A stretch of DNA of 61,515 nucleotides from the NCBI RefSeq assembly GCF_001598255.1, contig NZ_BCYP01000023.1, positions 1-61,515 of the forward strand, read 5' to 3'. Below, piece by piece: positions 5,629 to 54,224 of the stretch. This stretch comes from Mitsuaria chitosanitabida ATCC BAA-476 = NBRC 102408. Its GTDB lineage: Bacteria > Pseudomonadota > Gammaproteobacteria > Burkholderiales > Burkholderiaceae_C. Position 1 is the stretch's first letter. Each line of letters opens with the position of its first letter. The notes under the pieces were generated by a model, which saw nothing but the letters and a program-made list of their open reading frames with translations, did not search any database and was not told the DNA's origin. The translations under genes and the position numbers were made by a program.

Positions 5629-5685
5629 GATCGGTCCCTCTCCGGGCGATGCACGTGGCTTATGGGCTCCCTGTGCCCGCGGGCA

Positions 5686-5701
5686 TGCATATTGCGCGCC
5701 A
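5686..5701 (-). promoter_or_regulatory. Sigma-54-type promoter of the PEP-CTERM gene
   Basis: On the minus strand the sequence TGGCGCGCAATATGCA matches the -24/-12 consensus TGGCAYG-N4-TTGCA, with the invariant GG and GC separated by exactly ten bases. A start near 5674 would leave a leader of about 46 bases. PEP-CTERM genes in related bacteria are known to be driven by RpoN together with the PrsK/PrsR pair, so the context fits. An inverted repeat, ATTGATT-TCTC-AATCAAT (5714-5731), lies just upstream and could bind a regulator. Confidence 0.7.
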
Positions 5702-5792
5702 GCCCGCCAAGCCATTGATTTCTCAATCAATTCGATAAATGTGATTCCTTGACTGTAAAAAATGGCGACACCGTATGGTAGTGGAGTGCAAA

Positions 5793-6833
5793 TCAGTCGC
5801 ACCACAGCGGCAGGGACTGCCAGTCGCGCGGGAAGCCGGCAGAGCGCGGGCTGAGGCCGCCGTCGGCGGGAAAGGAATCCATCAGCGCCTTCAATTGCCG
5901 ATGCCATGCCGATTGCGGAGAGATCACCTTGAGCATCCATTGCATGCAGCAGAGGGCGCCGAAGAGGCGTGTCCGCGCGTGCTTGTCGTCGTGGAGGAAT
6001 GACAGGTTGGGGTGAAGGTCACGCGATGGCAGGAGCGGAATCTTGGTCGTGGTGCGGTTCCACAGACGGGCGTGATGCGCGGCGCGATTGCGGATGACAT
6101 TGAACATGTGGAGCCATGAGCACAGGACGCCGGCATGTCCGACCTTGAAGCTCTTGGCGATCGACTCGCGGTCCCGGCTTTGGAGCCCGGCGACAAACCG
6201 CGACAGCAGTCCGAAATCGAGCACCTCCATGGCGGCCCAGACGGGCAATCTGCCGTCGTAGCGGCGCCGATGATGCTCGATGAAGTCTTCCTTGGATCGA
6301 GCGCAAAGTTCGTCGAAGCGACGACGCCACGCTTCGTAGGCGGATACGCCGCTGGCGGGATCGATCAGGGTGAACTTGCGGTCGAGCAGCCGTTCGTTGC
6401 GATGAGCCTCCACGTCGAGGTGACCGATGCGCGCAGAAACGGCCGCACGAATGGCGAGCTCGATCGCCTCGAGTCCACCGAGGACCGCGGCGCGTAGCGC
6501 CTCATCGAACTGGATCAGTCCCTCGATGGTGTCGAAAGAGGCGTCACGGCGAAACGTTTCCGAATCGTCGAGCGGGGACGCGCGCGACTTGAGCGAGTGG
6601 GCGTAGCCGGAAAATCGAAAGTAACCGATTCGTCGAAGCACTGCGCGGGCGTGCTGCTCGTCGCTGATGGCAAGGCCTCTTGATCGCAGCAGTTCGATCT
6701 GCTCGGGAATCGATGTGAAGCGCTTCAGGGGACGAGGCGAGTCGTCCGAAGCCATGGGGGAAAAGAAGTCCCCCACATGCCGATCCGCGCTTTCGCCGGG
6801 GACAGAGGTGGGGGAGCTATTGCCGCGAATCAT
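5793..6833 (-). CDS. Abi_2-family abortive infection protein with HEPN RNase motif
   Basis: The 346-residue protein matches the Abi_2 (AbiD/AbiF-like) pattern: an N-terminal IPEQIELLRSRGLAI segment, RRIGYFRFSGYAHSLK (about 67-82), the Glu-rich LEAIELAIRAAVSARIGH helix and the diagnostic FNVIRNRAAHHARLWNR near residues 244-260. Arg248 and His253 form the R-x4-H active site of HEPN ribonucleases. In characterised relatives such proteins kill or stall phage-infected cells, probably by cleaving RNA. The start at 6833 is set by GGAGG six bases before the ATG; a second in-frame ATG (6755) lacks such a site. It is a single gene with no obvious partner. Confidence 0.88.
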   Translation of the reverse strand: MIRGNSSPTSVPGESADRHVGDFFSPMASDDSPRPLKRFTSIPEQIELLRSRGLAISDEQHARAVLRRIGYFRFSGYAHSLKSRASPLDDSETFRRDASFDTIEGLIQFDEALRAAVLGGLEAIELAIRAAVSARIGHLDVEAHRNERLLDRKFTLIDPASGVSAYEAWRRRFDELCARSKEDFIEHHRRRYDGRLPVWAAMEVLDFGLLSRFVAGLQSRDRESIAKSFKVGHAGVLCSWLHMFNVIRNRAAHHARLWNRTTTKIPLLPSRDLHPNLSFLHDDKHARTRLFGALCCMQWMLKVISPQSAWHRQLKALMDSFPADGGLSPRSAGFPRDWQSLPLWCD

Positions 6834-7010: not shown

Positions 7011-7973
7011 ATGACCTATCTCCTCAAGCGCCTGGCGGTCCTGGGGCTGACGCTGCTGGCCGCCTCGGCGCTGATCTTCGGCGCGCTGGAGTGGCTGCCC
7101 GGCAACGCCGCCCAACTGATCATGGGTCCCGAGGCCCCGCCCGAGGCCGTCGCCGCCTTGGCCGCCCAGCTCGGCCTCGATCAGCCCGCCTGGCATCGCT
7201 ACCTCGACTGGCTCGCCGGCCTCGCGCGCGGCGACCTCGGTCTGTCCTACGCCTATGGCGCGCCCGTCGTCGACCTGATCCGCGAGCGCCTCGCCCTCAC
7301 GCTGCCACTCGCGCTGCTCGCGATGACCCTGACCGTCGCCCTCGCGCTCGCCGCGGGCTGGTGGGCGGCGAGCCAGCAGGGGCGGCTCGGCGACCACCTG
7401 GTCATGGGGCTGACCCAGCTCGGGCTCGCCGTGCCGAGCTTCTGGCTCGGCATGCTGCTGGTGCTGCTCTTCGCGGTGAAGCTGCAGTGGGTCGACGCGG
7501 GCGGCTTCCCCGGCTGGGACGCGGAGCTCGGCGGCGGCTGGTGGCCCGGACTGCGCGCGCTGCTGCTGCCGGCGGTCGCGCTGGCGCTGGTGCAGGCGGC
7601 GATCCTGGCCCGCATCGCGCGCTCCGCGCTGCTCGACATCGCCCGCGAGGACTTCATGCGCAGCGCCCGCGCCAAGGGGCTGTCGCGCCGCGGCGCCCTG
7701 TGGCGCCACGGCCTGCGTCATGCGGCGATCCCGCTGCTGACGCTGGGTGGCTTGCAGTTCGCCAACCTGCTGGCCGGCACCATCGTCATCGAGAACGTCT
7801 TCACGCTGCCCGGCCTGGGCCGTCTGATGGCGCAGGCCATCGCCAACCGCGACCTCATCGTGGTGCGCAACGGCGTGATGCTGCTGGCCGCGCTGGTGCT
7901 GCTGATCAACTTCGCCGTGGACCTGCTGCACGGCTGGATCGACCCGCGTCTGCGCACGCGGACCCAGGCATGA
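7011..7973 (+). CDS. Peptide-type ABC transporter permease 1 (DppB/OppB-like)
   Basis: The 320-residue integral membrane protein opens with the usual MTYLLKRLAVLGLTLLAAS helix of DppB-type permeases and has about six membrane segments. The cytoplasmic EAA loop is visible as DIAREDFMRSARAKGLS, followed by the conserved WRHGLRHAAIPLLTLGG stretch. It forms the import pore together with the next gene product. An in-frame ATG 15 bases upstream is possible, but the start at 7011 matches family length. It is the first gene of a five-gene operon, and its stop overlaps the following start by four bases. Confidence 0.92.
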   Translation: MTYLLKRLAVLGLTLLAASALIFGALEWLPGNAAQLIMGPEAPPEAVAALAAQLGLDQPAWHRYLDWLAGLARGDLGLSYAYGAPVVDLIRERLALTLPLALLAMTLTVALALAAGWWAASQQGRLGDHLVMGLTQLGLAVPSFWLGMLLVLLFAVKLQWVDAGGFPGWDAELGGGWWPGLRALLLPAVALALVQAAILARIARSALLDIAREDFMRSARAKGLSRRGALWRHGLRHAAIPLLTLGGLQFANLLAGTIVIENVFTLPGLGRLMAQAIANRDLIVVRNGVMLLAALVLLINFAVDLLHGWIDPRLRTRTQA

Positions 7974-8779
7974 GGCGCGCCGGCTTCCACCTCGGCGCGG
8001 TGCTCACCGCGCTGCTGATGGCGACGGCGCTGCTGTCGCTGATCTGGACGCCCTGGCCGCCCGAGCAGATCGACATGGCGCGCCGCTTCGCCGCCGCCGA
8101 TGCGTCGCACTGGCTGGGCTGCGACCAACTGGGGCGCGACGTGCTCAGCCGCCTGATGGCCGGCGCGCGCAGCGCCTGGCTGGTGGGCATCGTCGCCGTC
8201 GGGATCGGGCTGATCGCCGGCACCGCGCTGGGTTTGCTGGCCGCCGCGCGCCAGGGCTGGGTCGAGGGCCTGGTGCTGCGCGCCGCCGACCTCGGTTACG
8301 CCTTCCCCGCGTTGCTGCTGGCGATCCTGCTGGCCGCGGCGCTGGGGCCCGGCATGACGATCGCGATGGTCGCCATCGGCTTGCACGCCGTCCCGTCCTT
8401 CGCGCGCCTGGTCAACGGCAGCGCCAAGAGCTGGTGGACGCGCGATTTCGTCCAGGCGGCGCGCGTCGCGGGCCAGGGCCGCGCGGGGATCACCTGGCGC
8501 CATGTGCTGCCGCAGCTGATGCCGCTGTTGATCGTGCAAGGCACGACGAGCTTCGCGCTGGCCATCCTGGCCGAGGCCGGGCTGTCCTACCTGGGCCTGG
8601 GCACGCAGCCGCCGCAGGCGAGCTGGGGCCGCTTGCTGGCCGAGGCGCAGACGCTGATGCTCGAGGCGCCACAGCTCGCCCTGGCGCCGGGCGTGGCGAT
8701 CACGCTGGCGGTGCTGGGCCTGAACCTGCTCGGCGACGGGCTGCGCGACCGGCTCGATCCCAAGGAGCAACCGAGATGA
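7970..8779 (+). CDS. Peptide-type ABC transporter permease 2 (DppC/OppC-like)
   Basis: The 269-residue second permease has the DppC hallmark HWLGCDQLGRDVLSRLMAGARS near residue 45 (a variant of the usual LGTDxLGRDxxSR), five to six hydrophobic segments and an EAA loop (FVQAARVAGQGRAGITWRHVLPQ). It pairs with the preceding permease in the inner membrane. Translation starts within the stop codon of the upstream gene (ATGA), indicating coupled expression. The long upstream extension of this frame runs antiparallel to real coding and is not part of the gene. Confidence 0.92.
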   Translation: MRRAGFHLGAVLTALLMATALLSLIWTPWPPEQIDMARRFAAADASHWLGCDQLGRDVLSRLMAGARSAWLVGIVAVGIGLIAGTALGLLAAARQGWVEGLVLRAADLGYAFPALLLAILLAAALGPGMTIAMVAIGLHAVPSFARLVNGSAKSWWTRDFVQAARVAGQGRAGITWRHVLPQLMPLLIVQGTTSFALAILAEAGLSYLGLGTQPPQASWGRLLAEAQTLMLEAPQLALAPGVAITLAVLGLNLLGDGLRDRLDPKEQPR

Positions 8780-41615: not shown

Positions 41616-42079
41616 CTAACCGCCGAATGACCTGCCATCGCGCAGCAGGGACACCGCTTCTGCCGAACTCACGATACGCATGTGCCGGAAGGAACCGAGC
41701 TTGACCAAGTGCTCATCGCCCGAAACGATCAGGTGAGCTCGACAGGCGAGCGCAGTCGCCAGCACCACATCATCGTCCGGGCATCTGGGACAGTCCTGGG
41801 AATCGACGGCGGGACGACGGTTCGGACACGGTCCGCGTACTCGGCCAGCAGCCTCTCCGCCGTCCAGCCCTTGAGCGCGAGTTGCTTGCTGAACTTCTGA
41901 CGAGTGATGACGTTGCGCAGTTCCGTGTGCAACGGATCGCTGCTGAAAAGGTCGACCGTCAAGATGTTCTTCATCGCGATCGCGATGAGGTCCGACGGGG
42001 GACCGTTCCACAGGTAGCCGGATACGACGGTGTTGGTGTCAAGAACCAGACGGACGACGCCTGCTCGCGCGGTACGCAT
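41616..42079 (-). pseudogene. PIN-family toxin gene with a single-base frameshift
   Basis: The first frame (from 42079) gives the PIN N-terminus MRTARAGVVRLVLDTNTVVSGYLWNGPP with Asp14 and continues to about 41790. The expected C-terminal half, CPDDDVVLATALACRAHLIVSGDEHLV, continues only in another frame to the stop at 41616. One extra C in the CCC run (GGG at 41787-41789 on the plus strand) would rejoin them. Either the toxin is dead or the base call is wrong. The antitoxin upstream is intact. Confidence 0.75.
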
Positions 42080-42275
42080 CGATCTCGGCCTGGATCTCTT
42101 CGGACGTCATGGGCGGTTCCGAGGGCGGACCCGATCGTGACTCATGTTCGAGGCGGAACGTCTCGAGGCGAAGGTGCTTGCGCAGGATCTGCGCAATCTG
42201 ATCGGAATCGAAAAGACCGGCGAGCCTGGCCTCGCGCGCCAGGCCTTCGGGCAAAAGAATCTCCACGGACGTCAT
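42039..42275 (-). CDS. Putative antitoxin partner of the frameshifted PIN toxin
   Basis: The 78-residue protein starts MTSVEILLPEGLAREARLAGLFDSDQIAQIL (first part shown), a short ribbon-helix-like start with helices that resembles antitoxins of the PIN-family pairs, and ends in a charged Arg/Ser-rich tail that would contact the toxin. It overlaps the toxin start by 41 bases. I do not recognise the exact family. A longer frame to 42353 has an unlikely N-terminus. Confidence 0.6.
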   Translation of the reverse strand: MTSVEILLPEGLAREARLAGLFDSDQIAQILRKHLRLETFRLEHESRSGPPSEPPMTSEEIQAEIDAYRASRRRPSGS

Positions 42276-42368
42276 GCGTTCATCCCCTTCATCACCGCCC
42301 GACCGGGCGTTGTCGTCATCGGGAATCGTCACAGCGTCAGCCCTCCATTTCAATTGCTCAGATGAGGA

Positions 42369-43833: not shown

Positions 43834-45081
43834 TCAGTGGTTCTTCGCGAGCCCCAGCACCGGCGAGAACAGGTACTCGACGATGCGGCGCTGTTCCAGC
43901 ACCAGGTCGGCCTGCAGCGTCATGCCGGCGCGCAGCGAGGGCGCCTCGCCCGCCAGGCCCGGGAGGCCCTGGTCGAGCGACACCAGCACCCGGTACACCG
44001 GGCCCTGCGCGAGCAGGCCCATCGGCAGTTCGCGCGCGTCGACGGCCGCGCGCGACACGCTGATCACGCGCCCGCGGCCGACGCCGAACTTCTGATACGG
44101 GAAGGCGTCGTAGCGCAGCCGCACCTCGTCGCCCGGCTTGACGAAGCCGATCGCGCGGCTGGGCGCGAAGAGCTCGGCCCGCAGCGCGCCGTCGGCGGGC
44201 AGCAGGTCGGCCACCAGCGTGCCGGCCTTCACCGCCGCGCCGGGCTCCACCCGCACGTTGGCCACGCGGGCGGCGATCGGTGCCACCAGCACGACCTTGC
44301 CGCGCCGCGTCGCCTCCGCGCTGCGCTGATCCAGCGCGGCGATCTTCTCGCCCACCTCGGCCAGCGCGACATCGCGATCGTGGCCCACGCCGGCCAGCTC
44401 ATGCCGCGTGCTGCCCAGCGTCGTGTCGCGCGCCAGCATGTCCTGCTTCACCGATTCGCGCTGCTCCGTGACCGCCAGCACCGCGTCCTCCAGCCGGTCC
44501 GCGTCGCGCCGCGAGATGTAGCCCTGCTTCGCCAGGTCCGCCTGATCACGCACCTGACGCTGCGCCAGCTCGGCGCGGCGCTCCAGCGTCTCCAGCTGTC
44601 GGCGGTACTGCGCGATCTCGGCCTCGAGGTTGCGGACCTCGCCGCGCAGCCGCGTCTCGCGCAGCTCGTAGCGCGAGCGCACCGCATCGCGCTGCTGCTC
44701 CAGCTGCTCGCGTTCGCGCGCCAGGTCGACCAGCAGCCGGCCCGACAGGCTCTGCCCCTGGTCGAGCTGCCCATCCAGCCGCAGTGTCGCGAGCTCCGCG
44801 CCGCGCGCGACCGCGTCGCCCTCCGACGCATGCAGCGCCTCGATGACGCCGTCGCTCTGCGCCTCGACGCGAATCACGCCGCGCTCGGGCCGCAGCCAGC
44901 CGCCGACCGTTTCCTTGCGCGCGTAGGTGCCGAGGAACAGGAAGCCCAGCAGCAGCGCGAAGACCAGCACCACCAGCGCCGTCACCCAGCGCGCGCTCGC
45001 GGGCACGTGCAGCAGCACCTCGCCGAGCAGGCGCTGGCCGCGATGCTCGATGGCCTCCTTGCGGAACAGGTTCGGTCTCAT
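43834..45081 (-). CDS. HlyD-type membrane fusion protein for peptide export
   Basis: The 415-residue protein has one N-terminal membrane helix (WVTALVVLVFALLLGFLFLG, about 32-51), the lipoyl/barrel half VIRVEAQSDGVIEALHASEG, a long helical hairpin of about 150 residues rich in Glu/Arg/Gln, and the closing barrel VVLVAPIAARVANVRVEPG. It links the inner-membrane exporter to an outer-membrane channel. Its ATG overlaps the stop of the C39 transporter gene by four bases, so the two act together. No TolC-like gene is present in the window. Confidence 0.9.
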   Translation of the reverse strand: MRPNLFRKEAIEHRGQRLLGEVLLHVPASARWVTALVVLVFALLLGFLFLGTYARKETVGGWLRPERGVIRVEAQSDGVIEALHASEGDAVARGAELATLRLDGQLDQGQSLSGRLLVDLAREREQLEQQRDAVRSRYELRETRLRGEVRNLEAEIAQYRRQLETLERRAELAQRQVRDQADLAKQGYISRRDADRLEDAVLAVTEQRESVKQDMLARDTTLGSTRHELAGVGHDRDVALAEVGEKIAALDQRSAEATRRGKVVLVAPIAARVANVRVEPGAAVKAGTLVADLLPADGALRAELFAPSRAIGFVKPGDEVRLRYDAFPYQKFGVGRGRVISVSRAAVDARELPMGLLAQGPVYRVLVSLDQGLPGLAGEAPSLRAGMTLQADLVLEQRRIVEYLFSPVLGLAKNH

Positions 45082-47300
45082 GGGCGGCGCTCCTCGTGGG
45101 AGGCCTCGGGGGCGGCCGGGGTGCGGGACGCGGCCGCCGCGGCGGCTTCGGCATCCAGCGGTTCGAGCTCCTGCGGCGCCGACGGCGCCGCGCCCTTGCG
45201 GCGGCGCTCGACGAGGCGGCCCTGCACCAGCTCCAGCACGCGATCGGCGCGGTCGACCAGCTCGGGCCGGTGCGCGACGACGATGCGCGTGATGGGCATG
45301 TCCTGCACGAGGTCGGCGATGCGGCGCTCGGCGCCGGGGTCGAGGTTGGCGGTGCCCTCGTCGAGGAAGAGCACGGCGGGCTTGCGGTACAGCGCGCGGG
45401 CCAGCAGCACGCGCTGGCGCTGGCCGCCGGAGAGCGTGGAGCCCATGTCGCCGACCATGCTGAGGTAGCCCATGGGCATGGCCTGGATCTCGTCGTGGAC
45501 GGAGGCGGCCTGGGCGCTCTCGACGACGCGGGCCATGTCGACCTGCGGGTCGAAGAAGGCGATGTTGTCGGCGATGGTGCCCATGAGCAGGCCGTCGTCC
45601 TGCTGCACGACGCCGATGGACTGGCGCCAGGCGCGCACGCCGAAGGATTGCAGCGGCATGCCGTCGATGAGGATGTCGCCGCTGGTCGGGGGGAGCAGGC
45701 TGAGCATCAGCTTGAGCAGCGTGGTCTTGCCGCCTCCGGAGCTGCCGACGATGGCGACGTACTCGCCGGGCGCGATGTCCAGCGAGATCGACTGCAGCAG
45801 CAAGGGCTCGTTCTGCGCGTAGCGGAAGGCGACGTCGCGCAGGCTGAGCGCGCCGCGCGGGGTGCGTTCGGGCAGCGCGGCGGAGGATTCGAGCCCGGCT
45901 TCGCGCGGCGTGGTCACGATGTCGGCCAGGCGCTCCATGTGCAGGCGCAGGAGGCGGAACTGCACGACCTGGCGCAGCAGCGCCTCGGCGCGGTCGCCGA
46001 ACTGGTTGCGGTAGAGCAGGATCGCGAACAGCATGCCCGCGCTGAGCGAGCTCTCCATCACCATCAGCGAGCCGAAGTAGACGACGAGCACCAGCTGCAG
46101 GTTGAAGATCAGGCTGCGCGCGAACTGGGTGCCGACCTCGACCTGGCCGGTGCCGAGCGCGGCGTTGACGACCTGGCCGAAGTGGTTGCGCCAGACGACC
46201 TCGCGCTGCGACTCGCGGCCGTAGAGCTTCACGGTCTTGGAGGCGCGGATCGATTCGATGAGGTAGGTCTGGGCCTCGGCCTGGGCGATGAGCTGTTCCT
46301 CCTCGCGGCGGCGGCGCAGCGGGTAGAGGCCCAGGACGAAGGCCGCGTAGATCACGAGCGAGACCAGCACGATGCCGCCGAGCGCGGGGCTGTAGATCAT
46401 CAGCAGCACGGCGGTGGCGATCATCATGACGCCGTCGATGAGGGCGGTGACGGCGGACTGGGTGAGGGCTTCCTGGATGGGCCGCACGGCGCCCATGCGG
46501 GAGAGGATGTCGCCGACGATGCGTTTCTCGAAGAACTCGGCGGGCAGCCGCAGCAGGTGGCGCAGCACGTTGCCGGAGAGCTGGAAGCTCATGGCCTGGC
46601 CGAGCTGCAGCACGGTCCAGCCGCGCAGCGCCTCGGTGAGGGACTGCAGGAGGTACATCGCGCCGAAGGCGAGCGCGAGCACGAGCAGGAAGTTCTGGTC
46701 GAGGCGGGCGACGGCGTCGTCCATGGCGAGCTGCAGGAAGGCCGGGGCGGCCATCGTGAACAGCTGCAGCATCACGGACAGCACGAGGGTCTGGAGCAGC
46801 GGGCCCTGCCAGCCGCGCACGCGGGTCCAGAGGTCGCGCATGCGGGCGCGGATGCGGACCTCGCGGGGTTGGAACGACGCGGTGGGGGTGAGCTCGAGGG
46901 CGACGCCGGTGAAGCTCTTGGCCATCTGGCGCGGCGAGATGCGGCGCACGCCGAGGGCGGGGTCGTGAATGATGGCGTCCTCGCCGCGGAGTTCCTTGAG
47001 GACGACGAAGTGGTTCATGTCCCAGTGCAGGATGCACGGGAGCTGGAGCTTGCCCAGATGGGAGGGTTCGAGACGCAGCGGGCGGCAGCCGAAGTCCATG
47101 CCGTCGGCGATGCGCATGAGGTCGGAGAGGGTGGCGCCCTTGAGCGAGAGCGCGTAGCGCTGGCGCAGGCCGTTGAGGTCGACGTGATGCCCGTGATACG
47201 CCGCGATCATGGCGAACGACGCGAGGCCGCATTCAGCGACCTCGGACTGATGGAACATCGGCAGCTCGCGCCGGCCGCGCAGCCAATCGAAGGGGTTCAA
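45078..47300 (-). CDS. C39-peptidase ABC transporter for double-glycine peptides
   Basis: The 740-residue protein has three parts: an N-terminal C39 cysteine protease (Gln18 and Cys24 in FHQSEVAECGLASFAM, His97 in WDMNHFVVL, Asp113 in IHDPALGV, all present), a six-helix exporter domain (about 160-440) and an ATPase with Walker A GSSGGGKTT, signature LSGGQRQR and Walker B AVLFLDEGTANLD. Such transporters cut leaders after Gly-Gly and export the released peptide. Seven matching precursor genes lie directly upstream. The C-terminal 40 residues are Ala/Glu/Pro-rich. A terminator separates it from the precursors, so it may have its own promoter or depend on readthrough. Confidence 0.94.
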   Translation of the reverse strand: MNPFDWLRGRRELPMFHQSEVAECGLASFAMIAAYHGHHVDLNGLRQRYALSLKGATLSDLMRIADGMDFGCRPLRLEPSHLGKLQLPCILHWDMNHFVVLKELRGEDAIIHDPALGVRRISPRQMAKSFTGVALELTPTASFQPREVRIRARMRDLWTRVRGWQGPLLQTLVLSVMLQLFTMAAPAFLQLAMDDAVARLDQNFLLVLALAFGAMYLLQSLTEALRGWTVLQLGQAMSFQLSGNVLRHLLRLPAEFFEKRIVGDILSRMGAVRPIQEALTQSAVTALIDGVMMIATAVLLMIYSPALGGIVLVSLVIYAAFVLGLYPLRRRREEEQLIAQAEAQTYLIESIRASKTVKLYGRESQREVVWRNHFGQVVNAALGTGQVEVGTQFARSLIFNLQLVLVVYFGSLMVMESSLSAGMLFAILLYRNQFGDRAEALLRQVVQFRLLRLHMERLADIVTTPREAGLESSAALPERTPRGALSLRDVAFRYAQNEPLLLQSISLDIAPGEYVAIVGSSGGGKTTLLKLMLSLLPPTSGDILIDGMPLQSFGVRAWRQSIGVVQQDDGLLMGTIADNIAFFDPQVDMARVVESAQAASVHDEIQAMPMGYLSMVGDMGSTLSGGQRQRVLLARALYRKPAVLFLDEGTANLDPGAERRIADLVQDMPITRIVVAHRPELVDRADRVLELVQGRLVERRRKGAAPSAPQELEPLDAEAAAAAASRTPAAPEASHEERRP

Positions 47301-47390
47301 CGGGATTCCCGATTCAAGGTTGGACCGGCGGTATTGTGCCGAGGGAGCAGGGGGATGCGAGGGGGAAAACGGGGGGAGGAAGAGGGAATG

Positions 47391-47415
47391 AAAAAAGGGC
47401 CGCGATGCGGCCCTT
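47391..47415 (-). terminator. Rho-independent terminator after the peptide gene array
   Basis: On the minus strand a perfect seven-base-pair stem GGGCCGC / GCGGCCC with an ATC loop is followed by six T residues. It lies 20 bases after the last precursor stop and about 90 bases before the transporter start, so most transcripts from the array should end here. Confidence 0.9.
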
Positions 47416-47435
47416 GGGATGCCGATCCGGGGGGA

Positions 47436-47750
47436 TCAGCCGATGCCGTCGTTGGTGACTTGCGGGCCGCCGGCGATGGCGGACAGGTCATCGTTGGCGA
47501 TCAGCGACGGACCATCGTTGACGACCTGGGGGCCACCAGCGACGGCGGACAGATCGTCTTGGGCGATGAGCGTGGGTAGGTCATTGACGACCTGCGGGCC
47601 GCCGGAGATGGTGGACAGGTCGTCTGGGTTGACGAGAGTCGGCCAGTCATTGATCACCTGCGGTCCGCCGGTAGTGGCGAGGACCTCTTCGGCAGTCATT
47701 TCACGCAGTTCGACGATGTCGACCTGTGGAGGCGTCTTCTTCTGGTTCAT
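47436..47750 (-). CDS. Double-glycine precursor peptide with four cores (P7)
   Basis: The 104-residue precursor has a 29-residue leader ending MTAEEVLATTGG, then three 22-residue units and a final nine-residue one. Each unit begins PQVxND (PQVINDWP, PQVVNDLP, PQVVNDGP, PQVTNDGIG). Between cores the linkers (for example NPDDLSTISGG, AQDDLSAVAGG, ANDDLSAIAGG) repeat the leader's recognition residues, so the C39 protease could cut at four Gly-Gly sites. GGGAGAAGC precedes the ATG. The family is not one I recognise; signal or antagonistic peptide are the leading guesses. Confidence 0.88.
   Translation of the reverse strand: MNQKKTPPQVDIVELREMTAEEVLATTGGPQVINDWPTLVNPDDLSTISGGPQVVNDLPTLIAQDDLSAVAGGPQVVNDGPSLIANDDLSAIAGGPQVTNDGIG
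47466..47663 (-). repeat. Three 66-base degenerate tandem repeats coding for peptide cores
   Basis: Three consecutive in-frame 66-base units each encode a 22-residue core-plus-linker; a truncated fourth follows. The protein repeats are closer to each other than synonymous DNA drift would require, indicating duplication under selection for the PQV-ND core and the Gly-Gly site. Confidence 0.85.
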
Positions 47751-47769
47751 TTGCTTCTCCCTGGATGAT

Positions 47770-47958
47770 TCAGGTCGGCGGACCGTCATTGACGACCTGC
47801 GGACCGCCGGAAACGGCAGCGAGGTCTTCGGTCGCGATGAGGGCTGGACCGTCGTTGAGGACTTGGGGTCCGCCGGAGGTGGCCAGGACTTCCTCCGAAG
47901 TCAGGTCCCGGACTTCGATCACGTCGTCTTGCGATTGAGGTTGTTGTTTCTGATTCAT
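47770..47958 (-). CDS. Double-glycine precursor peptide with two cores (P6)
   Basis: The 62-residue precursor has a 30-residue leader ending LTSEEVLATSGG, a 22-residue first unit starting PQVLNDGPALIATEDLAAVS and ending in Gly-Gly, and a final core PQVVNDGPPT. The ATG lies nine bases after the P5 stop, with only a weak ribosome site, so translational coupling is likely. The position -4 residue in the leader is Thr rather than Ile/Val. Confidence 0.87.
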   Translation of the reverse strand: MNQKQQPQSQDDVIEVRDLTSEEVLATSGGPQVLNDGPALIATEDLAAVSGGPQVVNDGPPT

Positions 47959-47967
47959 GGTGGAGAC

Positions 47968-48093
47968 TCAATACGGGGGGCCGTCGTTCTGGACCTCGGG
48001 ACCACCAGCGACTTCCAACAGTTCCTCGGAAGTCAGCTCGCGGAACTCCGCAAGATCGAGATCCTTCTCATTGATTTCGTACGTGACGTTCAA
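47968..48093 (-). CDS. Double-glycine precursor peptide, TTG start (P5)
   Basis: This 41-residue gene is short and starts with TTG, so it is easily missed. CAGGAG six bases upstream supports the start. The leader (MNVTYEINEKDLDLAEFR, then ELTSEELLEVAGG) has the full classical pattern and the core is PEVQNDGPPY, with Glu in place of Gln and a terminal Tyr. It lies 15 bases after the P4 stop. Confidence 0.82.
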   Translation of the reverse strand: MNVTYEINEKDLDLAEFRELTSEELLEVAGGPEVQNDGPPY

Positions 48094-48108
48094 GTGGAGC
48101 TCCTGGCG

Positions 48109-48231
48109 TTAGACCGGTGCATCGTTGATGACCTGAGGGCCACCGGCGACCGTGGCGATCACCTCATCGGCCGTCAAGGCGCGAGGCTCGATGGACTCGG
48201 CCAGAGGCTGCAGCGATTGGATTTGATTCAT
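48109..48231 (-). CDS. Double-glycine precursor peptide (P4)
   Basis: A 40-residue precursor with leader ending RALTADEVIATVAGG and core PQVINDAPV. The leader has one extra residue between the conserved Glu and the Gly-Gly pair compared with its paralogues. GGGAGAAG precedes the ATG, which lies 19 bases after the P3 stop. The longer upstream frame is a shadow of P3. Confidence 0.87.
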   Translation of the reverse strand: MNQIQSLQPLAESIEPRALTADEVIATVAGGPQVINDAPV

Positions 48232-48250
48232 TGCACTTCTCCCTGTGAGA

Positions 48251-48427
48251 TTAGGTCGGTGGACCGTCGTTGAGGACTTCGGGGCCGCCGGCGACTGCTG
48301 CCACTTCCTCATCGGTGAGCACGGTAGTGTCATTAATGACCTGCGGACCGCCTGCAATCGCATGCGTCTCTTCGGCAGTCATTTCGCGAAGCCGCTGAGC
48401 TTCAATGTCTTGGGTCTTCTTGCTCAT
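48251..48427 (-). CDS. Double-glycine precursor peptide with two cores (P3)
   Basis: A 58-residue precursor with a 27-residue leader ending REMTAEETHAIAGG, a first unit of 21 residues starting PQVINDTTVLTDEEVAAVA and ending Gly-Gly, and a second core PEVLNDGPPT. The first unit lacks the usual Pro after Asn-Asp. The ribosome site is weak; the ATG is 13 bases after the P2 stop. Confidence 0.86.
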   Translation of the reverse strand: MSKKTQDIEAQRLREMTAEETHAIAGGPQVINDTTVLTDEEVAAVAGGPEVLNDGPPT

Positions 48428-48440
48428 GACGTCTACCAGT

Positions 48441-48563
48441 TCAACCCGGCCAGTCATTCGTGACTTGCGGCCCACCCGCGACCTCGAGGATCTCCTCAAA
48501 GGTCAACTGGCGTGGCTCGACCAGATCGGCCTGCTCGATCTGGAGATCCAACATCTCGTTCAT
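48441..48563 (-). CDS. Double-glycine precursor peptide (P2)
   Basis: A 40-residue precursor with leader ending PRQLTFEEILEVAGG and core PQVTNDWPG. GGAG lies six bases before the ATG, 14 bases after the P1 stop. It is closest to P1 in both leader (MNxM start, VEPRxLT) and core, which differ only at the last residue, indicating recent duplication. Confidence 0.86.
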   Translation of the reverse strand: MNEMLDLQIEQADLVEPRQLTFEEILEVAGGPQVTNDWPG

Positions 48564-48577
48564 ATGAATCTCCATGA

Positions 48578-48703
48578 TCAGCTCGGCCAGTCATTGGTGA
48601 CTTGCGGGCCACCGGCGATGACGAGGAGTTCGTCAAGAGTGAGCTCGCGAGGCTCAACGATGTCGAGCTCCTGAGGCAAATGCGCTTCTTGCATGTCGTT
48701 CAT
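48578..48703 (-). CDS. Double-glycine precursor peptide (P1), first of array
   Basis: A 41-residue precursor whose leader ends PRELTLDELLVIAGG, matching the classical double-glycine consensus exactly (Leu -12, Thr -11, Glu -8, Leu -7, Ile -4, Gly -2, Gly -1). The core is PQVTNDWPS, nine residues. GAGAGG precedes the ATG. It is the promoter-proximal gene of the array. Confidence 0.87.
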   Translation of the reverse strand: MNDMQEAHLPQELDIVEPRELTLDELLVIAGGPQVTNDWPS

Positions 48704-48947
48704 TGATTCCTCTCCCACGTGAATGGATGCGATCGCGAACACCTTTGTCCGCGCGGCTGATTCTGCTGGTCAGATACGTCGCCGACAAGAGGAAACGCGA
48801 ACGTACTTTCTTACGTGCGGAGTTGAAGAAGGAGAACAGTGGTACGGCCTCCCTTTCCTCACCACCATGGCTGTCATCGGTAGCCAACTGAGACGAGAGG
48901 TGGCAGCCGTACATCGTCGAGCAAGAGCGCCGAGGATGACGATGCAA
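48704..48947 (-). promoter_or_regulatory. Promoter region of the peptide array with a candidate operator
   Basis: This gap lies between the terminator of the 129-aa gene and the first precursor and holds no convincing gene. Parts of it are about 50% GC by hand count, far below the neighbourhood. A 16-base inverted repeat ACGTA-N6-TACGT (48801-48816) about 100 bases before the P1 start is a candidate operator. I could not identify a clear -35/-10 pair; an ECF-type promoter is possible given the sigma factor upstream. Confidence 0.5.
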
Positions 48948-48976
48948 GAAAAAAAGGAGTCGCATAGCGACTCCTT
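48948..48976 (-). terminator. Rho-independent terminator after the 129-aa gene
   Basis: On the minus strand a perfect ten-base-pair stem AAGGAGTCGC / GCGACTCCTT with a TAT loop runs into an eight-base T-rich tract. It separates the sigma-kinase-129 aa unit from the peptide array. Confidence 0.9.
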
Positions 48977-49013
48977 CTTGTGAACGCGCGACCGCGCGAT
49001 CAAGCGCGGAACA

Positions 49014-49403
49014 TCACAGGCCAGGCGCGTCGTTCGTGATCTGCGGATCGCTGCTGGGGTACAGGCCCTCGACAGTGCCACGCGTCGAGAACAGCAGGAC
49101 AACGCCCTTGGTCACGGTCGTGCTGGTCGGCATGGTGATGCTGACAACGTTCTCGTCATCGGCCGGAGCGAAGTTGCTCAGGTTCATGCCAGGCGTGGCA
49201 CCGATCGTCTTGAACGTTGCGCCGATGAGCATCAGATCCGATTCATTGGCCGGAGCGAATTGGCACTCACCAGTGGTGGGCGAAACGTGAAGGGATGAGC
49301 TGTCAATTGGCTCTTTGCGAGCTTGATCCCGGAAGTACTGGCACGAGGCAAAGTTTCCATCCGGGCTGATCGAGGCAGCGACATAGAAAGTGGTGGTCGG
49401 CAT
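49014..49403 (-). CDS. 129-aa protein ending in the peptide-family motif (P0)
   Basis: AAGGAGAATCC before the ATG fixes the start. The protein (MPTTTFYVAASISPDGNFAS start) is Thr/Ser/Asp-rich, has two cysteines (ASCQYF, GECQF) and no signal peptide or Gly-Gly leader. Its last residues, DPQITNDAPGL, match the PQVxNDxP core of the seven precursors nearby. I do not recognise the rest. It follows the kinase gene by 32 bases and may be a cytoplasmic partner, a carrier or a non-processed relative of the peptides. Confidence 0.82.
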   Translation of the reverse strand: MPTTTFYVAASISPDGNFASCQYFRDQARKEPIDSSSLHVSPTTGECQFAPANESDLMLIGATFKTIGATPGMNLSNFAPADDENVVSITMPTSTTVTKGVVLLFSTRGTVEGLYPSSDPQITNDAPGL

Positions 49404-49435
49404 TGGATTCTCCTTGAGCGGGTGTCGTTGATGGG

Positions 49436-52171
49436 TCATGAAGGCTGACCGGCACGTTCGCTGGCAAGCCATCCTTCGGCCGCCTTCACGCTATCTCGGT
49501 TCCCCCTGCCCAAGCAGGATTGGGCCTCAACCCAGGCGCGTGTAATCTGCTGATGAACCATGAGGAGCCCACCCTTCTTCTCAATCTTGTCAATAACGTC
49601 GAGGCAGAGGGCCTCGCGTCGAGCGATGGAGTTCGGAGCTGAGGTTCCTCGCAATAGATCCATTTGCGCCAGTCGTGCCATGGTCCAGGATGCAAGTTGC
49701 CGCAGGTCCGCGGGGAAGCCCTTTGCGGCTTGATTTGGATCCGGAATCGTTTCGGCCAAGAGTCGATCCGCCCCGGCCGTATCGCCGATATCGTTGAGCG
49801 CTTTCGCATACAGCGCTGCCCATCGGAATCGAACGTCGTTGGTCCGAATCACTCCGGCCGGAGAGAGTTTCTTGACATAGTCGTCGATGCGGACGCCGAT
49901 CTCGCGTAGTTGTGCTGCACGCATAGACGACGGGGTATCGCTCCAGCGAATTTCCGAATCGATCACTTCGCTATGGAGTCCATTCACGCGCCATTGCGTG
50001 TTTGCCGGATCTTTCGCGATGAGAGCCTTGATCTGCTCAAGGGAGCGGCGGGATTCATCCACTGCGGCGGCATGATCTCCCTGCTTCTGAAGAGATTCCG
50101 CATGCCAGCGCCTGAGGATCGCTTCCCGGTACGCCCATCCATCGTCCAATGGTGCGGCTTTGCGGACATCTGAAACGAGTCCGACGCTTTCTGCAAAGTT
50201 TGCCGTCGCGGCGGTCGCCATGCCTTGCCAGAGAAGCGATGTACCAAGCCAACTAAGGCTGTCAGCCAACTCCATGCGCGCGGTGGCTTGATCTGGTGCC
50301 TTGCTGCCCTCAAGCGCCTTTCGTTTGAGATCGATAGAACGCTTGAAGTAGTCCGAAGCGCCACGCAGGTCCGACGTATCCAAGCGCAGGCTTCCAAGGC
50401 TGTTGTATGCATAGGAAAGCTCGAGCAAGGCCTCTTGGCTGTCCGGCTCGGCATCAAGCCAAGCTTGTTCGGCATCCCGATAGGCAAGAATCGCCTCGGT
50501 CGCTTGCTCAAAGGCACTCTGTCGATAGTGCGCTTGACCGAGCCAGAACGCGGCGGCGCCTTGCGCCTTGCGCCAGTCCCCAGTGGCGATTGATGTTGGT
50601 ACCGATCCTGCAAGCAGCCGCTGAGCGGCCATCAAAGGCTCGATGGCTTCCTTGAGACTCCGCTTCGTCACCCGCACCTCACCAATGACGGTCAACGCCT
50701 TCGCGCGCTGAAGCCGTTCCTGCGGTGATGCCTTGTCATCCTGCGCCAGATACGTCAGCGCCTTGCTCCCCACGCTGTCCAGCAGCTCCAATCGCCCGAC
50801 CGGCCGCAGCTTGTCCGCGAACTCCCCGAGCATGTAGCTCAGCAAGTCATCGGCCTGCTGCCTCCGCTCCTGCGCCTGATGCTCCGCCATCGACGCCCTT
50901 CGCGCCTGCAACACGCTCACCGTCGTCAACCCCACCAGCACCATCACCGCCGCGCTGCCCGCCGCCACGCTCCACCGGTGCCGGCGCACGAAGCGCCCCA
51001 TCACATACAGCCGCGTGTCCGGCCTCGCCGTGATCGGCTCATGCGCCAGCCAGTGCCGCAGGTCGACGGCCATCGACTCCGCATTCGCGTAGCGCTCCGC
51101 CGGGATCTTCTTCAGCGCCTTCCCGACGATCGTGTCCAGATCCCCCCGCAACAGCTTCGACTGCCGCGCCACCACCGGATCCAGCTGGTTCTCCGCCACG
51201 TCCGACAGCCGCTTGGGGACCAGCTCCACCACGGCCTTGAGCCGTTCCAGGTGCTGCTGCGTGTCGTCCGCCGTCGGGTGCCGGCCGCCGAGCAGCTGAT
51301 AGAGCAGCACGCCCAGCGCGTACACGTCGGTCGCCGTCGTCACGTCGCCTTGCTGGACCTGCTCCGGCGCCGCGTACTGCGGCGTGAACGCGCTGCCCGC
51401 GCGCTGCGTGAGCTCCGTCGCCGCGCCCGATTGCGTCGCGTCGTCGAGCAGCTTCGCGATGCCGAAGTCGAGCAGCTTCACCTGTCCGTCATGCGTGACC
51501 AGGATGTTGCTGGGCTTGAGGTCCCGATGCAGGATCAGCCGTTGATGCGCGTGCGCCACCGCCGCCAGCACGTCGAGGAACAGCTTCACCCGCGCCTCGA
51601 CATCCAGCCCGTTCACCTGGCAGTAGCGGTCGATGGGCAGGCCGTCGACGTACTCCAGCACCAGATAGGCCTGATGCCCGTGATGCAGCCCCGCGTCCAG
51701 CAGCCGCGCGATGTGCGGGTGCGAAAGCCGAGCGAGGATCTGCCCCTCGCGCTCGAAGCGGCCGCTGTCGCCCTTGCCGAACAGCCCCGACTTCAGGAAC
51801 TTGACCGCGACCTCGCCCTCGAAGCGGCCGTCGGCGCGGCGGGCCAGCCACACGGCGCCCATGCCGCCTTGCCCGAGCTCCCGATCCAGCACGTAGGGCC
51901 CGATCGATTCCCCGGTGAAGTCCGGCCCCTCCGGCGCGAAGCCCAGCGGCGCCGGCGTGCCTTGCAGCGCCTCCGCGGCCGGTTGCTCCAGGAAGCGCTC
52001 CTGCCCCAGCGCGGCATCGCGCGCGAGCAGCGCCTCCAGGTGCTCCCCCATCGCCGCATCGGCGGCGCGGATCTCCGCCAGGCGCGCCGAGCGCCGGGGC
52101 TCCTCCAGGTCCAGCAGCTCGTCGAGCAGCGGGCTCAGCGCGATCCAGCGCTGTTTGTCGAGTGCGTCCAT
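49436..52171 (-). CDS. Transmembrane Ser/Thr protein kinase with helical-repeat C-terminal half
   Basis: The 911-residue protein has an N-terminal helical region, a PknB-type kinase domain (about 90-385: glycine loop ELGQGGMGAVW, Lys124 in VAVKFL, HRDLKPSN with Asp217, DFG at 235, PQYAAPEQ), a single membrane helix (about 400-422) and a C-terminal TPR-like half of about 480 residues. It probably senses an external cue and controls the neighbouring ECF factor by phosphorylation, as in known ECF-kinase pairs. GC content falls visibly after about residue 480 (below 50720), suggesting a mosaic gene. Confidence 0.92.
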   Translation of the reverse strand: MDALDKQRWIALSPLLDELLDLEEPRRSARLAEIRAADAAMGEHLEALLARDAALGQERFLEQPAAEALQGTPAPLGFAPEGPDFTGESIGPYVLDRELGQGGMGAVWLARRADGRFEGEVAVKFLKSGLFGKGDSGRFEREGQILARLSHPHIARLLDAGLHHGHQAYLVLEYVDGLPIDRYCQVNGLDVEARVKLFLDVLAAVAHAHQRLILHRDLKPSNILVTHDGQVKLLDFGIAKLLDDATQSGAATELTQRAGSAFTPQYAAPEQVQQGDVTTATDVYALGVLLYQLLGGRHPTADDTQQHLERLKAVVELVPKRLSDVAENQLDPVVARQSKLLRGDLDTIVGKALKKIPAERYANAESMAVDLRHWLAHEPITARPDTRLYVMGRFVRRHRWSVAAGSAAVMVLVGLTTVSVLQARRASMAEHQAQERRQQADDLLSYMLGEFADKLRPVGRLELLDSVGSKALTYLAQDDKASPQERLQRAKALTVIGEVRVTKRSLKEAIEPLMAAQRLLAGSVPTSIATGDWRKAQGAAAFWLGQAHYRQSAFEQATEAILAYRDAEQAWLDAEPDSQEALLELSYAYNSLGSLRLDTSDLRGASDYFKRSIDLKRKALEGSKAPDQATARMELADSLSWLGTSLLWQGMATAATANFAESVGLVSDVRKAAPLDDGWAYREAILRRWHAESLQKQGDHAAAVDESRRSLEQIKALIAKDPANTQWRVNGLHSEVIDSEIRWSDTPSSMRAAQLREIGVRIDDYVKKLSPAGVIRTNDVRFRWAALYAKALNDIGDTAGADRLLAETIPDPNQAAKGFPADLRQLASWTMARLAQMDLLRGTSAPNSIARREALCLDVIDKIEKKGGLLMVHQQITRAWVEAQSCLGRGNRDSVKAAEGWLASERAGQPS

Positions 52172-52217
52172 CTTCCTCGCGTGGGCGTCTTGTCGAGATG
52201 CGGGATTCTGACCGGGG

Positions 52218-52772
52218 TCAGGTCTTGAGACTCATCGAAAGCAGGATGCGGGCCTTCTGCCAGTCGCGCTGGACCGTGCGCTCGGTCACGCCGAGCGCCT
52301 CCGCGATCTCCGTCTCCAGCAGCCCGCCGAAGTAGCGCATCTCCACCACCTGCGCCAGCCGCTGGTCCACCGCCGCCAGTTCCTCCAGCGCCTCGTGCAC
52401 CCGCAGGATGTCCTCGTCGGTCTGCGGCGTCTGCTCCGCCACCGCGGTGTTCAGCGTCACCGCCGGCTGGTCGCCGCCCCGCCGCTCCGCCTGGCGCGCG
52501 CGCACCAGGTCGATCACGACGTGCCGCATCACCCGCGCCGCATAGGCCAGGAAGTAGCGCCGATCCGGAAAGCTCTTGCCCTGCGCGCCGGCCAGCCGCA
52601 GCCAGGCCTCGTGCACCAGCGCCGTGGTGTCCAGCAGCGTCATCTCGCCCGCCGCCCGGATGCGCTGGCGCGCCAACCGCTGCAGCTCGCCGTACAGCTC
52701 CGCCACCACCTGGTCGGCGGCGGCACGGTCGCCTTGGCCGGCGGCCTGCAGCAGTTGAGTGATCTCCGTCAT
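52218..52772 (-). CDS. ECF-type sigma factor (TIGR02999-like)
   Basis: The 184-residue protein has sigma region 2 (YGELQRLARQRI, TALVHEAWLRLAG, FLAYAARVMRHVVIDLVRARQAERRGG) and region 4 (DQRLAQVVEMRYFGGLLETEIAEALGVTERTVQRDWQKARILL). This is the ECF subgroup usually encoded next to Ser/Thr kinases rather than an anti-sigma factor, and no anti-sigma gene is seen here. It is a good candidate to drive the peptide array. The ATG at 52772 is preferred to a GTG three codons earlier. Confidence 0.92.
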   Translation of the reverse strand: MTEITQLLQAAGQGDRAAADQVVAELYGELQRLARQRIRAAGEMTLLDTTALVHEAWLRLAGAQGKSFPDRRYFLAYAARVMRHVVIDLVRARQAERRGGDQPAVTLNTAVAEQTPQTDEDILRVHEALEELAAVDQRLAQVVEMRYFGGLLETEIAEALGVTERTVQRDWQKARILLSMSLKT

Positions 52773-53078
52773 GGGCGGCACTCTAGCGGCCTCGTATGAC
52801 CTTGTTACATCCGCCGGGCGACAGACCGGTCAAACCTGACCCTCCTGGCGTCATTTCAAGGGTTTCCACCTAGAAGATTTTTGTTAGCGAATGTCGGGAG
52901 CGCCGGCGGGATTCCGTTCTGTATTGATGAGAGCGCGATTCGGTCATGTGGCAAGGGAGGCCGGCATGGACGGGCTGCTTCAGCAGGGTCGCGCTCTCAC
53001 CCCATTCGAACGCGTCCCCGTGACGGCCCAGGCGGCCGGCGGCGGGCGCGACATCCAGAAGTCCGCAGGGAGTCGCGC
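52773..53078. other. Divergent intergenic region between ECF sigma and degenerate GGDEF genes
   Basis: This 306-base gap holds the candidate ECF promoter and an AT-rich patch (about 52870-52900, AGATTTTTGTTAGCG) that may serve the plus-strand gene. Small frames such as 52891-53082 lack a ribosome site and protein-like composition. I see no RNA gene. Confidence 0.6.
52804..52833 (-). promoter_or_regulatory. Candidate sigma-70 promoter of the ECF sigma factor gene
   Basis: On the minus strand TTGACC (52833-52828) and TGTAAC (52809-52804) are separated by 18 bases, a 5/6 and 4/6 match to consensus. The predicted start falls about 25 bases before the ATG. Confidence 0.35.
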
Positions 53079-53627
53079 ATGAGCTTGTCCACCGTCACCG
53101 CCACGTCCGGCGATGGGTCCGCGCCCGCGGAGACAGCCCGGATGGACCGCGCCAAACCTGCCCGCCACACCCCGGCCCTGTGGGTCCCCCGCGTGGATGC
53201 GCTGGCCGAGTTCGGCCTGATGATCTCGCGCCACCTGACGCAATGCCGCCGCTACGGCGGGCACCTCGCGGTGCTGTGGCTGGAGGCCGCGCCGCTGGCG
53301 CGCGAGGGCCAGTCCTGGCCCCACGACGCCCAGGACGCGCTGATGCTGGCCGTGGGTCGCCGCCTGCGCAGCCGCGTGCGCGGGACCGACATGGTCCTGC
53401 AGGTCGGCGAGTCCAGCTTCGCGGTGATGCTGCTGGACGCGGGAACGCCCGAGGCCAACCTCGTGCAGCAACGCCTGATGCAGGTGCTGAACGGGCCCTA
53501 CAACGTCGACGAGCACACCATGCACGTCGGCCTGAGCATGGGCGCGGCCGCCTTCCCCGAAGGCGGAGTGCGCGGGGCCGACCTGGCCGAGAGCGCCCGC
53601 GCCGACCTGCGCCGCCGCCAGGGCTGA
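53079..53627 (+). CDS. Degenerate GGDEF-domain protein
   Basis: The 182-residue protein has the fold of a diguanylate cyclase domain (FGLMISRHLTQCRRYGGHLAVLWLEA, then VGRRLRSRVRGTDMVLQVGESSFAVMLLDAG in part), but the GGDEF signature reads GESSF, so it should not make c-di-GMP. The region HVGLSMGAAAFPEGG matches the usual SIGxA segment. It may bind nucleotide or partner proteins. AGGGAG before the ATG supports the start. Confidence 0.78.
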   Translation: MSLSTVTATSGDGSAPAETARMDRAKPARHTPALWVPRVDALAEFGLMISRHLTQCRRYGGHLAVLWLEAAPLAREGQSWPHDAQDALMLAVGRRLRSRVRGTDMVLQVGESSFAVMLLDAGTPEANLVQQRLMQVLNGPYNVDEHTMHVGLSMGAAAFPEGGVRGADLAESARADLRRRQG

Positions 53628-53643: not shown

Positions 53644-54105
53644 TCAGACGTCGCGTCCGTAGACGATGAAGCCCTGATGCTGGGCCACGCGGTCGTAGAG
53701 CGCGCGGCCGGTCGCGTTGGTCTCGTGCGTCTGCCAGTAGAGCCGCTCGCTGCCCTGCGCCTTCGCCGCCGCGGCGGTGGCCTCGATCAGCGCCCGTCCG
53801 ACGCCCTTGCCGCGCAGCGCCGGCGCGGTGAACAGGTCCTGCAGGTAGCAGACCCCGCCCGGCCGCGTGGTGCTGAGGTGGAAGAGGTAGTGCGACAAGC
53901 CCACCACCTGACCGTCGAGCTCCGCCACCAGCGCGTGCATCGGTACCTGCTCGTCGAAGAAGCGCTCCCACAGGATGCGGGTGCGTTCTTCCGGAAGGGC
54001 GGTCTCGCCCGCGCGTCCGTAGAAGGCGTTGTAGCCGTCCCAGAGCGGCCGCCAGGCGGCGAGGTCGGAGGAACGGATCGGGCGGATGACGAGATCGGTG
54101 GGCAT
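53644..54105 (-). CDS. GNAT family N-acetyltransferase
   Basis: The 153-residue protein shows the GNAT fold: IRPIRSSDLAAWRPLWDGYNAFY at the start, the central strand and motif A LQDLFTAPALRGKGVGRALIEA, in which R-G-K-G-V-G binds acetyl-CoA, and the closing ETNATGRALYDRVAQHQGFIVY. The substrate is unknown. The ATG at 54105 suits family length; a longer frame has an Arg/Pro-rich unlikely N-terminus. Confidence 0.9.
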   Translation of the reverse strand: MPTDLVIRPIRSSDLAAWRPLWDGYNAFYGRAGETALPEERTRILWERFFDEQVPMHALVAELDGQVVGLSHYLFHLSTTRPGGVCYLQDLFTAPALRGKGVGRALIEATAAAAKAQGSERLYWQTHETNATGRALYDRVAQHQGFIVYGRDV

Positions 54106-54224
54106 GCGCGCGTGAGGTGAGGGGTCGAGCGGGACCCGGGCGAGACGCCCGTGCACCGCGGGGGTGGAAGGAGCCCGGATCATCCGTGCTGGCCCGCCCC
54201 CGATCAATCGTCACCCTGGGGGAC

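Follow-up and report, generated by a model that had tools for sequence, protein, structure and literature searches.

We describe an array of seven peptide precursor genes in a 61,515-nucleotide stretch of Mitsuaria chitosanitabida ATCC BAA-476 = NBRC 102408 DNA (contig NZ_BCYP01000023.1, positions 1 to 61,515; hereafter the window). The predicted cores of these precursors carry a motif that is also the tail of the folded protein encoded beside them, often residue for residue across strains. We put the probability at roughly 55% that the array supplies the secreted component of a system for peptide signalling, in which array and exporter would make a diffusible version of a receptor ligand that otherwise comes from the partner protein. 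Such a row of predicted secreted, tail-like peptides, present in some environmental bacteria, points to a new type of signalling by peptides in bacteria. The minus-strand gene order, from 52781 to 43834, is extracytoplasmic function (ECF) sigma factor, kinase, 129-residue tail-bearing protein, seven precursors, C39 exporter and HlyD-type membrane fusion protein.

A first-pass annotation had placed seven consecutive double-glycine (GG) precursors at 47436-48703 on the minus strand, and all seven open reading frames (ORFs) are found there. It had not said that precursors 3, 6 and 7 are multi-core (2, 2 and 4), so that seven precursors yield 12 copies of GG-P[QE]-V-x-N-D; examples of the predicted unmodified cores are PQITNDGITPPA and PQITNDSFQPPS. 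Its prediction of 9-10 residue products holds for the seven terminal cores, whereas the five internal ones would leave as 21-22-mers ending in GG if cut solely after GG. By eye, a purine-rich ribosome-binding site is present at five precursor starts (48703, 48563, 48231, 48093 and 47750) and absent at 48427 and 47958. When the 5.82 Mb genome was searched with a degenerate DNA pattern representing the core motif, all 12 matches fell at the array locus; a narrower pattern gave nine matches and the reversed control none. The pattern was present in 3 of 299 genomes of the family; in the two others, G164 and G266, it matched only within larger ORFs that are unrelated and face a further long ORF on the other strand.

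A profile built from all seven precursors retrieved 44 proteins at E ≤ 0.1 from 5.8 billion, all 44 with GGP[QE]; six of them are the window's own precursors or their clusters. As the arrangement also recurs in Roseateles depolymerans and in two metagenome-assembled genomes of Rubrivivax, the array is not a chance occurrence. Relatives of the precursors are named 'hypothetical protein' or, twice, 'Bacteriocin'. All seven precursors were scanned with NCBIfam and two of them with Pfam; the single model to exceed its cut-off was the leader signature TIGR01847, on precursor 7 (18.6 bits versus 15.7), while Bacteriocin_IIc (PF10439) reached 16.1 and 16.6 bits in the two Pfam scans, below its cut-off of 27.1. 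In these searches no described family with this core was found, in agreement with the annotation, which knew of none.

The flanking genes were also correctly named: the downstream C39 exporter and fusion protein and the upstream sigma factor and transmembrane kinase are open frames with domains above Pfam cut-offs. Cys, His and Asp contexts and a Walker A motif were recognised by eye in the exporter, and with GG leaders encoded beside a C39-ABC transporter and fusion protein, cleavage and export of the peptides are predicted. The kinase has a single hydrophobic segment, as judged from hydropathy, directly followed by an all-helical solenoid of tetratricopeptide repeats (TPRs). The sigma factor scores 153.6 bits against PF07638 (Sigma70_ECF; cut-off 21.1), which we take to be equivalent to group ECF43; it is encoded beside the Ser/Thr kinase and carries a Thr in a TTA motif (LLDTTALVHEAW), as in ECF43 factors that are paired with kinases.

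Between kinase and array lies a gene that the first-pass annotation did not mention. Its 129-residue product has the C-terminus SSDPQITNDAPGL, with the core motif in the tail, and the end YPSSDPQITNDAPGL is that motif with D replacing the second G. The protein has no match in Pfam or NCBIfam. An AlphaFold2 model built from 50 aligned sequences is a beta sandwich (predicted local distance difference test score, pLDDT, 92.7) with the tail as its last strand (residues 121-124; mean pLDDT 77 over residues 121-129). The best PDB matches of this predicted fold are SO1698 of Shewanella oneidensis (DP-EP/DUF1888, PF08985), titled aspartic peptidase; the modelled fold is that of DP-EP. In profile comparisons, the window family matched an SO1698-like alignment with a probability of 96.6 (E 6.6e-10) and a second Roseateles family with one of 97.2 (E 4.6e-11); the latter two did not match each other directly (probability 1.9). 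Taking sequence and model together, the window protein is a distant relative of SO1698, and it shares with it the C-terminal pattern S-x-D-P-[QE]-[VI]-x-N with Asp-Pro in the same place.

Among PDB deposits of SO1698, the long chain has 119 residues in the wild type, where it ends at Asp116, and in K98A, Y26F, P115A and Q118A, but 128 residues (uncut) in D37A, S114A, D116A and P117A. We read these chain lengths as a cut of SO1698 between Asp116 and Pro117, which takes nine residues off; self-cleavage was reportedly described in a 2012 Journal of Biological Chemistry paper. S117, D119 and P120 of the window protein are the counterparts of S114, D116 and P117, and D119-P120, the Asp-Pro at the start of the tail, is invariant (18/18). 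A D-P-Q tail is kept in all 16 genomes of the genus, and 118 of the 120 homologues listed (133 found) have D-P-[QEK] near the C-terminus, the remaining two having D-P-V. We call the protein DP-EP-like because it misses the PF08985 cut-off: the window protein gave no match, one of 13 relatives matched (E 0.21), and the Rugamonas protein scored 21.7 against a cut-off of 25, compared with 58.4 for a true member (L092).

Two further observations concern the ends of these proteins. Tails ending in Cys (e.g., PQVLNDGPLTC) occur in five of the eight genus genomes without an exporter at the locus (L042, L043, L046, L047 and L048) and in none of the eight with one; they make up 25 of 118 homologues listed, and Cys is found in 0 of 55 cores. 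Tandem second copies of a paralogous DP-EP-like gene in G304 and G288 (L057 ~5250-5960 and L058 ~6000-6700) have ends that depart from the tail motif (VATADPGS and GATVDSAAHGKSI).

The DP-EP-like gene follows the sigma factor and TPR kinase in 16/16 genus genomes, and in 12 of them a paralogue lies behind a regulator with a winged helix-turn-helix (wHTH) and STAND domain that bears the same sensor. The kinase's sensor part indeed also ends regulators starting with Trans_reg_C and nSTAND1 (E 1e-36 to 1e-47; six regulators domain-scanned), and the output ahead of the membrane segment is either a kinase, with its ECF sigma factor, or wHTH-STAND. Setting aside one weak partial match (E 7.6e-7), the 16 genomes hold 28 strong matches to the sensor, 16 of the kinase type and 12 of the wHTH type; each of them is followed, on the same strand and at a distance of 36-711 bases, by a DP-EP-like match. 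Conversely, every one of the 30 DP-EP-like matches, two of them tandem second copies, shares its contig with such a sensor. Among the 59 genomes in the family to which G1042 belongs, six have a DP-EP gene above the cut-off, always directly behind a sensor-bearing regulator. The pairing is likewise found in Rugamonas and G582, and G524 has a regulator with the same domains (assigned by domains only) followed by a 130-residue ORF ending in HDPEVVNTGH. From these lineages, the pair of sensor and DP-EP-like protein reaches far beyond the peptide array; no GGP[QE] precursor or secreted tail copy was seen at six gammaproteobacterial DP-EP loci.

The tails and the predicted cores vary together by system type. 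Kinase-type tails read DPQ[VI]xN[DQ] and their cores GGP[QE][VIL]xND, except for two inverted genes with PEVTNSVG. For wHTH-type systems, tails are DPEVGNGSSN (two genomes) and DPEVEAGSSS, and cores GGPEVEGSSSN, GGPEVEGGSSN, GGPEVGNTSSN and GGPEVGSGSSN. Rugamonas has the tail DPQVVNEPGQQ and the core GGPQVQNDPQV together with six further cores, two of them deviating from NDP/NEP. In three genomes with both systems and precursors, tail-core identity was 0.54-0.78 within a type and 0.11-0.28 across types; here a paralogous system with another motif in the same cell serves as a built-in control. Over all clusters, tail-core pairing was equalled in 21 of 20000 permutations with 10 clusters and in 36 of 20000 with 11. 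Comparing 108 tails with 55 cores gave 22 pairs identical over at least nine residues, against a mean of 2.8 and a maximum of 10 for shuffled cores. These exact matches span 9-11 residues and occur between strains: the window tail is identical to one of the cores of P0001, and one of the window's cores to the tail of P0088, two proteins that may come from one genome.

Exporter and array form an optional module within the genus, which the first-pass annotation had not noted. Exporter and HlyD are at the locus in 8/16 genomes and precursors in 7/16, while sigma factor, kinase and DP-EP-like gene are in 16/16; the exporter counts refer to the locus only, exporters elsewhere in those genomes not having been sought. 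The sensor is therefore more than a regulator of a peptide cluster. Precursors were found at seven of eight exporter loci, the sole one found in G310 being inverted with the core PEVTNSVG; in G218 (L052 6531-8942), the exporter immediately follows the DP-EP-like gene, and no precursor was seen between the two.

We propose that the C39 domain would cut each precursor after GG and that the exporter would release a peptide starting with Pro-[Gln/Glu]-Val/Ile-x-Asn. A Pro-starting peptide of this kind would also be the tail of the DP-EP-like protein, either freed by cleavage at Asp-Pro or acting while attached. The TPR domain of the receptor may bind this core/tail motif, and binding would set the kinase, which in turn would activate the ECF factor. 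A more specific version, which we hold only tentatively and consider somewhat improbable as a whole, is that a self-cleaving Asp-Pro protein frees its C-terminal nonapeptide as a ligand for TPR receptors, that in some lineages a C39 exporter secretes numerous copies and variants of it in free form, and that the tails of neighbours and the secreted peptides are read against each other in Gram-negatives, for self/non-self discrimination or quorum sensing.

Several results weigh against this proposal. Within kinase-type systems, own tails matched own cores no better than those of other clusters (equalled in 85 of 720 permutations with six clusters and 797 of 5040 with seven), and 0 of 38 self tail-core pairs in eight hand-picked groups matched over nine residues while five cross pairs did; as only ~0.7 self matches were expected, the latter comparison is without power. 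The tail motif P[QE][VILM]xN[DEQ] fits just 84 of 118 tails of the homologues listed. The sensor pair can do without exporter and precursors, the former being absent from the locus in 8/16 genus genomes and the latter in 9/16. Kinase-type loci in G310 and G299 (L050 ~8348-8449 and L055 ~7696-7788) have inverted precursors with the core PEVTNSVG, and wHTH-type precursors were found in 3 of 12 genomes with that system; the other nine have the tail, and a profile derived largely from PQ-type sequences detected no precursor in them. The position of SO1698 D37 is Ser36 in the window protein (hhalign), so self-cleavage may not occur there, given that the D37A mutant is uncut; D37 varies even among clear DP-EP members. 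By eye, the DP-EP-like protein has no signal peptide and so no evident export route to a domain beyond the membrane. Moreover, TPR solenoids look alike whatever their ligand, and no promoter motif common to arrays and ECF genes was found.

The strongest competing explanation, although in our view an unlikely one, is bacteriocin-like competition, in which relatives would be inhibited by the peptides, and the DP-EP-like protein, bearing the same motif, would serve for immunity or as a decoy. Class II peptides typically have GG leaders and C39/HlyD export, and the databank label 'Bacteriocin', the TIGR01847 match, the many variants per strain and the optional presence would all fit. The cores are nevertheless short, polar and nearly fixed as PQVxND, unlike what we would expect of pore formers, and Bacteriocin_IIc fell short in both precursors scanned. 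The DP-EP-like gene and sensor also persist in the eight genomes lacking the locus exporter and at the six gammaproteobacterial loci with no GGP[QE] precursor seen, so immunity is hardly their basic role.

Less probable still is strand exchange, with the DP-EP-like protein as receptor and its tail as a placeholder for secreted cores, of the strain itself or of others, that would swap into the last beta strand. The modelled tail strand and the between-strain nature of the exact matches are consistent with this; on the other hand, there is no sign of the DP-EP-like protein leaving the cytoplasm, and the strict pairing with TPR receptors is unexplained unless the complex is the receptor's ligand. 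Very improbable is a ribosomally synthesised and post-translationally modified peptide (RiPP) modified by an enzyme before export: the precursor layout is RiPP-like and a GNAT-family acetyltransferase gene lies nearby, but the six flanking window genes scanned with Pfam gave phytase, GNAT, GGDEF, a weak BamE match and nothing else (flanks of other loci were viewed by eye), a GNAT-like gene (by eye) is also at the array-less locus L047, no core has a Cys, and an unmodified product is favoured because the cores match the tail of an unmodified protein.

The proposed signalling system combines parts already described, namely GG/C39 export, TPR peptide receptors, ECF43 kinases and SO1698. With GG pheromone and bacteriocin systems that use C39 exporters, the window shares leader, GG, C39-ABC and HlyD; it differs in a core family that was new to the searches made, in the resemblance of the core to a neighbouring folded protein's tail and in multi-core precursors. 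Its receptor candidate is also a TPR kinase or wHTH-STAND protein and not the histidine kinase that we presume for such systems. RRNPP receptors such as Rap and PlcR act in the cytoplasm after peptide import; by hydropathy, the window kinase instead has a hydrophobic segment directly before its TPR part, unlike a cytoplasmic receptor. In Xanthomonas citri, the single-pass kinase PknS, with periplasmic TPRs, directly phosphorylates the ECF43 sigma factor EcfK, whose type has a Thr in a TTA motif with the consensus QTTA (PMC13147305). The window resembles this pair in its single-pass TPR kinase, ECF43-type sigma factor and Thr in the TTA motif. The sections of that paper available to us mention no DP-EP-like partner or peptide, and leave the signal for the periplasmic TPRs to future work (PMC13147305).

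The peptides form a class of candidate ligands for the TPR-bearing receptor kinases that are paired with ECF43 factors, for which the PknS signal was left open in those sections. They also give a possible peptide-signalling route in Gram-negatives and suggest a testable function for the nonapeptide that is cut off proteins of the SO1698 type. The prediction is specific, with named 9-10-mers and a named receptor domain, and a ligand from two sources would, if confirmed, be a new kind of peptide signalling. In the limited literature collection searched, no description was found of secreted peptides that, as a family, copy a folded partner protein's tail.

Table 1. Positions of the locus features in the window.
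Feature	Position	Strand	Description
HlyD-type membrane fusion protein	43834..45081	-	415 aa
C39 peptidase / ABC exporter	45078..47300	-	740 aa; C39, ABC membrane and ATPase domains
Terminator-like hairpin and T run	47395..47415	-	between array and exporter
Precursor 7	47436..47750	-	104 aa; four GG cores
Precursor 6	47770..47958	-	62 aa; two GG cores
Precursor 5	47968..48093	-	41 aa; TTG start; core PEVQNDGPPY; P0022 near-identical
Precursor 4	48109..48231	-	40 aa; core PQVINDAPV
Precursor 3	48251..48427	-	58 aa; two GG cores, PQVINDTTV... and PEVLNDGPPT
Precursor 2	48441..48563	-	40 aa; core PQVTNDWPG
Precursor 1	48578..48703	-	41 aa; core PQVTNDWPS
DP-EP-like protein	49014..49403	-	129 aa; last residues SSD-PQITNDAPGL, with core motif
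Ser/Thr kinase	49436..52171	-	911 aa; hydrophobic segment ~402-420; C-terminal TPR solenoid
ECF sigma factor	52218..52781	-	Sigma70_ECF, TIGR02999; motif LLDTTALVHEAW
GNAT-family acetyltransferase gene	53644-54207		

The hairpin is weak on its own, because the region has four such sites against 4.5 expected by shuffling. Window positions 41616-42353 hold an apparent gene split over two frames, presumably of the PIN toxin type, beside a small ORF that has no Pfam match. Elsewhere, the genome has a further C39 region, with a different GG peptide (GGGFFSKLGKFLG...; L002 1960-2160), and L097, L098 and L099, from other genus genomes, hold longer Gly-rich GG precursors with unrelated cores that look microcin-like by eye. 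A GGDEF gene (52881-53627) adjoins the ECF gene in the window. In gammaproteobacteria (L092, L125-L129), a GGDEF-type gene, confirmed by Pfam in the two tested and otherwise assigned by eye, comes after the regulator/DP-EP pair, in the same direction in five of six and in the opposite one in L092; a link to cyclic di-GMP is possible.
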